In this document: positions 48,501 through 51,500 of the stretch, one piece after another
How positions within the stretch are numbered: the stretch's first letter is position 1
How the letters are laid out: each line of letters opens with the position of its first letter
Origin: Psococerastis gibbosa
Lineage: Eukaryota; Arthropoda; Insecta; Psocodea; Psocidae
DNA: 64,000 bases
NCBI GenBank assembly: GCA_963971405.1
Contig: OZ020489.1
Location: forward strand, 45,338,510-45,402,509
Direction of reading: 5' to 3'
The notes under the pieces: model-generated
Databases searched by the model: none
What the model was told of the DNA's origin: nothing
Seen by the model: only the letters and a program-made list of their open reading frames with translations
Made by a program: the position numbers and the translations under genes

Positions 48501-51500
48501 CATGTGGTCGTTTTATAATGTAATTTAAAATACTAACCTCAGGTGCCATGTAGTCTGGAGTGCCACAGAATGTGTCCGCTGTTCTGTCGAGGTAGATGGC
48601 GAGCTTGCACATACCGAAGTCAGCGATGCGGATGTGCCCGTCGAAATCGAGTAGGATGTTGTCTAGTTTGAGATCTCTGTGAAGAAAGCAATGGATTTGA
48701 TTTTACTTGTAGCAGCTCTACAAAAATATAGCTAATTATGCAACCGTGACAAAATAAGAGCATAGGCCTACTTTCGTACATAAAATATTGACATATCATT
48801 TCTCTGTGCCGCGCAGTCAGATGAGGAAGAATGGGGATAGGATTCCTTCAATATCTCCTCGTTTATTTAAAGCATTAAGAATTAGTTAAAAAACGGTGTG
48901 CATTCCTGCAAAACCATTGACTACGGAAAACTGTAGACGCATTTAATTGTAGGCTAAGCTCTCAAAATTGTATTACTTAAATAAAAATGAATAAAGATGA
49001 AAACGCAGTTGAGAAATTGACGATGCATACAAAAATTGGACATGTTTGTACCTATAAATAATTCCCTTCTTATGAAGGAATTTGAGTCCAGAGACAATTT
49101 CTGCAGCGTAAAACCGGGCGCGAGGTTCCTCGAACCGCCCAGTTTTCTGAATGTGGAACATGAGATCTCCGCCGTTCAGGTATTCCATTACGAAGAATAA
49201 ATGAGACTGCAAACATGACAAGGTAGCGTATTAACATTTTTTGCGTAAGAAACATAATTTGTTCACGAATGTATGCTGAAGGCAACATTTTAAATTGGTA
49301 CGTTTACTTACTTGACCATTGTATTAATGGCTAACATTTGTAATTACTTGCATAGGCCTAATAACATTTTTATGCAAAAAACACAAGGTTGTGGGGAAAT
49401 CCGTGGAGTTGTAACTTACAATATACCGTAATGAATTACTACCTATACCTAGCCCACTACTATATTGTATGATATGCTATATTAGCAAGCGAAATCAGAC
49501 GTACAATCATTCTATTTTAGTATACTTCTGCATCTCTATGACATTCATCAATTCTGTCTTAAGAGTTACGTCCAGTTTGACTCAGCGGCAGTGCAATTCT
49601 GACTCGTTTTATGAGAAATAAGAGTGAGTACTGTTCTCGGTTACTTCTGATTTATAAGGAGGCATTTCAAGATGATGTAGTCATTGACATTGTATACGAT
49701 ATTTAAATATAGTACTTACATCAGTTTGAAATGTACAAAATAAGTGACAGAGGTAGGGGTGTTTGGTGCTCAGAGCCAGCACCTTTCGCTCAATCAACCT
49801 GTACAGCAATCAAACAATTAAATTAGCATTATAAGTATACTGCTAGTCAGAAATTAATGGGATATATAGGTACCGGAAAAACTCCAGTGAAGCAGTTTGA
49901 ACTTAAAACGTTTGATATGGCAAATGAGGAAAATTAGGAGTTATGTACCGTATTGAATTGTAGAATACACATACACATAAAGTATCTTGAAGTCAGTAAC
50001 TGGCTTAAGTGCTAAAGTGGTTGCACTCCGGTACTGCTAACCGCGACACCCAAATGGAGCAAAATTCAAAGAAGACGATCATCGACCAGTTCTCAAGTCT
50101 GAGCCTACTGCATTGTTAATCTTGTCTTGTCATTTTATTGTTTCTCTTTAGATACAATAGCTAGAATCAAGTAAACTTTAAACATGAGAGAAAGGAGGTA
50201 AGTGACTGGGGTTCGAATCCTGTAATTTTTTACGTATTCATTTTCCTATAATATCCTTGCCTGCAGAAGTTATCAACGAAGTAAATTGTAATAACTGTTG
50301 AACTTGAGAAATGAGTTCTTACGTGCACTCGACGTCATCGTCCTCTAGGACGACATCCTTCTTCAGACACTTGATGGCGTAGTACGATGATGTACCCTTG
50401 AGCTCAGCCAGGAACACCTATGGCCAACACATAAGACCAAAAATAAATACATGGGATGCGTTCTTACTTGTAGTCGACGTCATCGTCTCTTACAACCTTT
50501 TTTCCAGAGATTCTGTGGCGCAGTACTCCTTCACTTCAGTCAGGAACCCCTATGACCAACGCATAAGACAAATAAATTTAAAGGATGTGTCTTTTCGTGC
50601 ACTCTACGTTATTATCCTCTAAAACGACATCCTTCTCAAGGCATTCGATGGCGCAGTGCTACGAAGTGCCCTTCTGCTCAGCCAGAGACACCGACATACT
50701 AAACAAAGTAAATACATGGCATGCGTTTTCACGTGCACTCAACAGCATCGTCCTCTAGAACGACGTTCTACTGGAGACATTTGACGTACCCTTCACCTCA
50801 GCTATAGACACCTATGACCAACACATTAGACGATAAATATAAATATAGGATGCGTTCTTACGTTTACTTTATGTCCTCCTTCAGTCACTTGATGGCGTAG
50901 TACGACGAAGTACTCATATTTAGCTGAGCAAGGAATACCTGACCAACACATAATACAATACATTTGAGGGATGCGTTCTTACGTGTGCTCGACGTCATCG
51001 TTCTCTAGGACGGCCACCTTCTTGAGGCATTTGATGGCGTAGTACGACGACGTACCCATTAGCTCAGTGAGGAACACCTAACGAACGTACATGAAAAATA
51101 TGTAGATTTTTAGATAGGTTAGACAGATTTTTAGTAAACTTTTTTTAAGAGTGTCATTGTCCAAGCACATCGAACGCAGTACAACAGCCTAAGCTACCTG
51201 TTCCATTGCCTCCGTTATCAGGTATTTTAGAACTATGATTAATAAGTATATTATATATAAAAAATTGCACTTAATTCCACAACATAAATTTTAAATAGTA
51301 ACAGCTGTTTCGGTGTAACACCATCTTCAGACTGGCTCCAACAATCAGTCTTAATTAGCGTGGAGGGGGTATGGGTGGGGCACTCCAGACGCCAGATCTA
51401 AGAGAGGGGAAGTGTGCATAAATCTTATGTCATTGACTAGGTTGCAATTTTACATAATGAGGAGTATAATAAGAAAACACAAAAGGAAAAAACTATCGGA

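Follow-up and report, generated by a model that had tools for sequence, protein, structure and literature searches.

A tandem array of six catalytic-lysine exons in a delta-type PKC gene of Psococerastis gibbosa, probably an old amplification in decay

On the minus strand of our window (the whole 64-kb stretch of Psococerastis gibbosa DNA that was analysed) lies a PKC gene in which the 95-nt exon carrying the catalytic lysine occurs in six head-to-tail copies, c1 to c6, from 51077 to 50323. We believe that this array is probably an old local amplification of one delta-type PKC exon that is now decaying, with c6 as the working exon. We favour this over a second reading, in which c1 and c6 both function, as mutually exclusive exons, with the frame allowing one of them per transcript; such a pair is possible, and we give it less credence. 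Both had been offered by an initial annotation of this DNA, which proposed a switch between the two outer copies and, as an alternative, a simple local amplification, by now largely decayed. The switch could still be real, and the alternative fits somewhat better.

The host gene

The kinase domain of the gene is split over many exons (Table 1). Its best PDB matches are PKC theta (E 2.3e-29), PKC eta (2.6e-27) and PKC alpha (9.5e-25), and the exons align to human PKC delta. The same genome has two separate PKC genes, which we take to be conventional-like and epsilon-like. Because PKC theta is the top match and those two genes are separate, similarity over the kinase domain points to a novel PKC of the delta/theta type. 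The initial annotation was correct in calling a PKC gene and its catalytic-lysine exon. All five blocks downstream are open and the activation-loop Thr is kept together with its neighbouring residues, so the gene looks functional. A novel PKC of the delta type would also have a pair of C1 domains and a delta-type C2; one C1-type exon block was found in the window (58181-58086), and the gene may extend past the window. The donor and acceptor that had been named on either side of the array, at 53591 and 49798, are both right.

Table 1. Features of the PKC gene and of the exon array, in window coordinates. On the minus strand each copy starts at its higher coordinate.
Feature	Positions	Strand	Description
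Upstream exon	53591-53769	-	ends at glycine-rich loop (...LGKGSFGK); donor gtgagc; phase 0
Insertion in intron upstream of c1	51218-52239		inverted arms 51230-51323 / 52099-52192 (94 nt, 95% complementary)
c1	50983-51077	-	open, 95 nt; acceptor TTAG; donor CAC/GTAAGA; six residue changes relative to c6
c2	50862-50938	-	interrupted by stops, an insertion of 3 nt and a deletion of 21 nt; retains AG and GT
c3	50733-50811	-	16-nt deletion, frame lost; AG and GT kept (GTGAAA)
c4	50597-50691	-	full length, with Glu for the catalytic Lys and a stop in frame; neither AG nor GT left
c5	50468-50549	-	two deletions (9 and 4 nt); retains AG and GT
c6	50323-50417	-	open 95-nt exon, probably the working one; encodes PKC consensus, 31 residues + (T)
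Downstream exon with alpha-C glutamate	49720-49798	-	acceptor at 49798
Remaining kinase-domain exons to C terminus	42441-49206	-	five blocks, all open; end ...TNPNATMD stop
First of the five blocks	49206-49052	-	
Other four blocks (approximate)	48676-48539, 45598-45404, 43804-43649, 42566-42441	-	

The window holds several other elements. The insertion listed in Table 1 is about 160 nt upstream of c1 and is bordered by near-identical direct repeats (51218-51235 and 52222-52239). It looks to us like a short Penelope-like remnant, presumably; its ORF had no Pfam match. A reverse transcriptase frame (46647-48299, minus strand; RVT_1, E 4.6e-34) sits within the intron between two kinase exons. There is also a long and apparently intact transposase frame on the plus strand at 30780-32630 (Pfam DDE_Tnp_1_7, E 1.1e-74), which we assume to be piggyBac-type, and a tandem array at 37107-37585, in which a unit of 163 nt is repeated 2.9 times with 85% matches.

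Six copies of one exon

Alignment bears out the annotated number of copies and all six of their start positions. When the c6 exon was compared with the whole window by blastn, it matched c1 at E 7.5e-23, c4 at 1.1e-17, c2 at 1.1e-11, c3 at 1.2e-8 and c5 at 0.002, while the best match outside the array had an E of 0.63; the array is far beyond chance. The spacers between copies (44, 50, 41, 47 and 50 nt) are homologous intron sequence that can be aligned from copy to copy. The repeated unit is thus the 95-nt exon together with 41-50 nt of intron, and slippage or unequal exchange may have multiplied it to six copies. The shortest parsimony tree from the exon disagrees with that from the flank, so the order of duplication is not settled by either.

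The array is found at a single place in the insect's own genome (409 Mb, 68 contigs), which rules out a dispersed repeat. Tandem arrays are a usual site of assembly errors, and the annotation had allowed that this one could be an artefact or, as we also considered, a collapsed repeat. That was not borne out: pairwise divergence within the exon is 15.8-41.5%, and every copy has lesions of its own, all at one genomic location. We rejected an artefact on the divergence and the private lesions, and consider it extremely improbable.

The two outer copies are open at 95 nt with a usable acceptor and donor, as annotated, and their donor 9-mers are identical. Counting pyrimidines over the 17 positions from -20 to -4 gives 12 for c1, 10 for c6 and 10 for the next exon, so by its sequence the c1 acceptor appears ordinary. 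All four inner copies are broken by deletions or stops, again as annotated. Loss of the splice dinucleotides is confined to c4; c2, c3 and c5 keep both. That four of the five spare copies are broken is one of our reasons for favouring decay. Under decay c2-c5 would be dead, and c1 would be the least damaged spare, used rarely or never.

The exon has start phase 0 and end phase 2. The frame is kept with c1 alone or with c6 alone; when both are skipped a stop follows two codons on, and when both are joined there are stops inside c6. The annotated rule of one copy per transcript is therefore sound. It is a consequence of exon length and, taken alone, does not tell whether a copy is used. A transcript in which c1 and c6 were spliced together would lose the frame and would probably be open to nonsense-mediated decay.

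A mutually exclusive pair draws support from the same facts. The two copies are homologous neighbouring exons of the same length phase with compatible splice sites, both are open, and including both or neither destroys the frame. Counting against the pair, a search for docking-selector RNA pairing, with the sequences flanking c1 or c6 set against the nearby intron, gave nothing that stood out among the 12 combinations (z -1.60 to +2.17, in a single-sequence test that is weak).

The lower limit of ordinary intron length exceeds 41-50 nt. This bears on a different use for the spare copies, in which they act as poison exons. A transcript that took in c1 as well as c6, or one of c2, c3 and c5, would lose its frame or gain a stop, and PKC delta output would be lowered. 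The splice dinucleotides that c2, c3 and c5 retain, and the stops that arise inside c6 after c1, agree with such a role, but the spacers are too short to serve as ordinary introns between neighbouring copies. We think it very unlikely.

Selection on the two open copies

For c6, all five of the scored departures from the majority of the other copies are synonymous (p 0.001-0.003; codon 31 is undecided and was omitted from this count). These purely synonymous departures and the consensus sequence suggest that c6 alone is held by selection and spliced in.

The evidence on c1 is mixed. It differs from c6 at 15 of 95 nucleotides, with dS 0.485, dN 0.112 and dN/dS 0.23 (7.5 changes of each kind). 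This ratio argues for the exclusive pair and against decay, and it blends the constrained c6 branch with the c1 branch. Measured against the majority of copies, c1 has 6-7 synonymous departures of 13-14 (7/14 and 6/13), a modest excess over the neutral expectation, with p between 0.053 and 0.168 depending on the count and on kappa. This excess also favours the pair over decay, as does the fact that c1 keeps its frame, splice sites and catalytic Lys in an array whose copies have diverged by 16-42%.

Against the pair, the codon-position pattern of c1 is not distinguishable from that of the broken copies: of the departures in c1, 7 of 14 are at third positions, against 25 of 67 for the c2-c5 group (Fisher p 0.39). 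In fairness to the pair, even c6, seemingly constrained, reaches just p 0.075 with 5 of 6, so this test has little power and is weak both ways. Departures per scored site are 0.156 in c1 (14/90), 0.071 in c6 (6/85) and 0.186-0.289 in c2-c5, and c1 is closer to c2, c3 and c4 (13/70, 15/74 and 17/88) than to c6. This resemblance to the broken copies, in position and in rate, is a second reason to favour decay.

We simulated neutral decay to see how often a spare copy would stay intact. After scaling to full length, the copies entered with 14, 17, 18, 17 and 25 substitutions; the indel rate was calibrated on the five indels in c2-c5, with a lower rate of 0.04, chosen arbitrarily, as the alternative; and any indel, in frame or not, was taken to break the copy. 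In these runs c1 itself was intact with a probability of 0.13-0.23, the expected number of intact copies among the five spares was 0.39-0.84, and at least one was intact with a probability of 0.34-0.60. Under this model one intact spare in five is unsurprising, and the intactness of c1 favours function just two- to threefold. This too leads us to favour decay.

We found no spliced retrocopy carrying c1; matches outside this gene had at most 70% identity in the candidates scored (39 of 39, then the best 150 of 190). We count this among the reasons for the decay reading.

Residue changes in c1

As annotated, c1 and c6 differ at 6 of 31 residues: A4T, K7M, D21V, V22A, D26N and C31H. If the pair were in use, the c1 form would have an altered beta2-beta3 turn, segment before alpha-C and alpha-C start, with the catalytic Lys kept. 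Several of these changes count against a working exon. K7M replaces a Lys that is invariant in 9 of 9 AGC sequences compared, and D21V and D26N replace Asp residues that are invariant among the compared PKCs. Among the 31 positions, 16 do not vary across five PKC sequences, and these take five of the six replacements (p 0.10 for five or more); when human PKC delta is included, 14 positions remain invariant and take four of the six (p 0.24). The replacements thus give no sign of avoiding positions conserved in PKCs, and that they hit such positions, K7M included, is a further reason why we favour decay.

The annotation did not remark that one of the six, C31H, falls on the alpha-C site through which PKA contacts its activation-loop phosphate. 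According to PMC10458722, this is His87 of PKA, which bonds to that phosphate; PKCs except iota and zeta have Cys there, and about one third of human AGC kinases have His. In the insect's own genome the PKA-, Akt- and SGK-like kinases have His at this site, and Cys occupies it in both of the further PKCs that we found. This makes a switch of activation-loop coupling a definite idea that can be tested. In the pair reading, the His could bring alpha-C into PKA-like contact with the activation loop when that is phosphorylated, and the activation-loop Thr for this is present in the gene. The comparison with PKA also cuts the other way: according to PMC10458722 and PMC6969211, PKA with His87Ala has a catalytic rate about three times as high, and loop phosphorylation is dispensable for PKC delta. 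For these reasons the effect of C31H on the kinase is uncertain.

The A of the c1 His codon is common to the broken copies c2 and c5, which also weakens the case for the pair. Part of the C31H change may thus be older than c1. We had considered an argument from the two base changes that C31H would take, and dropped it since the A occurs in those copies too.

The fullest form of the pair reading is that c1 is a used exclusive exon which gives this PKC delta a PKA-type alpha-C His, that splicing sets the dependence on activation-loop phosphorylation, and that the other four copies are remains of a wider choice of kinase-lobe variants. We regard it as unlikely.

Comparison with known systems

Should c1 be in use, it would represent a natural swap, by exon, of a PKC's ATP-lysine segment, and it would test the role of an alpha-C residue that is Cys in most PKCs and His in PKA. 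If it is unused, the array is a clear case of the birth and decay of tandem exons, with graded wrecks beside a working copy, and would be a neutral yardstick for claims of functional duplicated exons. Our search of the open literature, mostly through its listings, turned up nothing on duplication of the catalytic-lysine exon in a PKC of the delta type.

The duplicated exons of PRKCB, Pkc53E and pkc-2 are presumably C-terminal V5 exons. PMC9741552 describes a tandem exon substitution in these human, fly and worm PKC genes, so tandem exon duplication is already known in kinases and in PKC genes, a precedent for the pair. Those genes are conventional PKCs, whereas ours is of the delta type and the catalytic-lysine exon is the one duplicated. 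With the PKA catalytic subunit, c1 would share the His at the His87 position, while the rest of the c1-form domain would be that of a PKC. Another likeness is to exons 7A and 7B of human FYN (FynB and FynT), which PMC9741552 also gives as mutually exclusive duplicated exons, spanning the N-terminal lobe of the kinase with its ATP site, and which likewise lend the pair some support. In both genes the duplicated exon covers the ATP-site part of the kinase lobe. FYN, however, is a tyrosine kinase, and its pair is ancient and proven in RNA and protein, whereas here the use of c1 is a proposal, and c1 is accompanied by four further, decayed copies.
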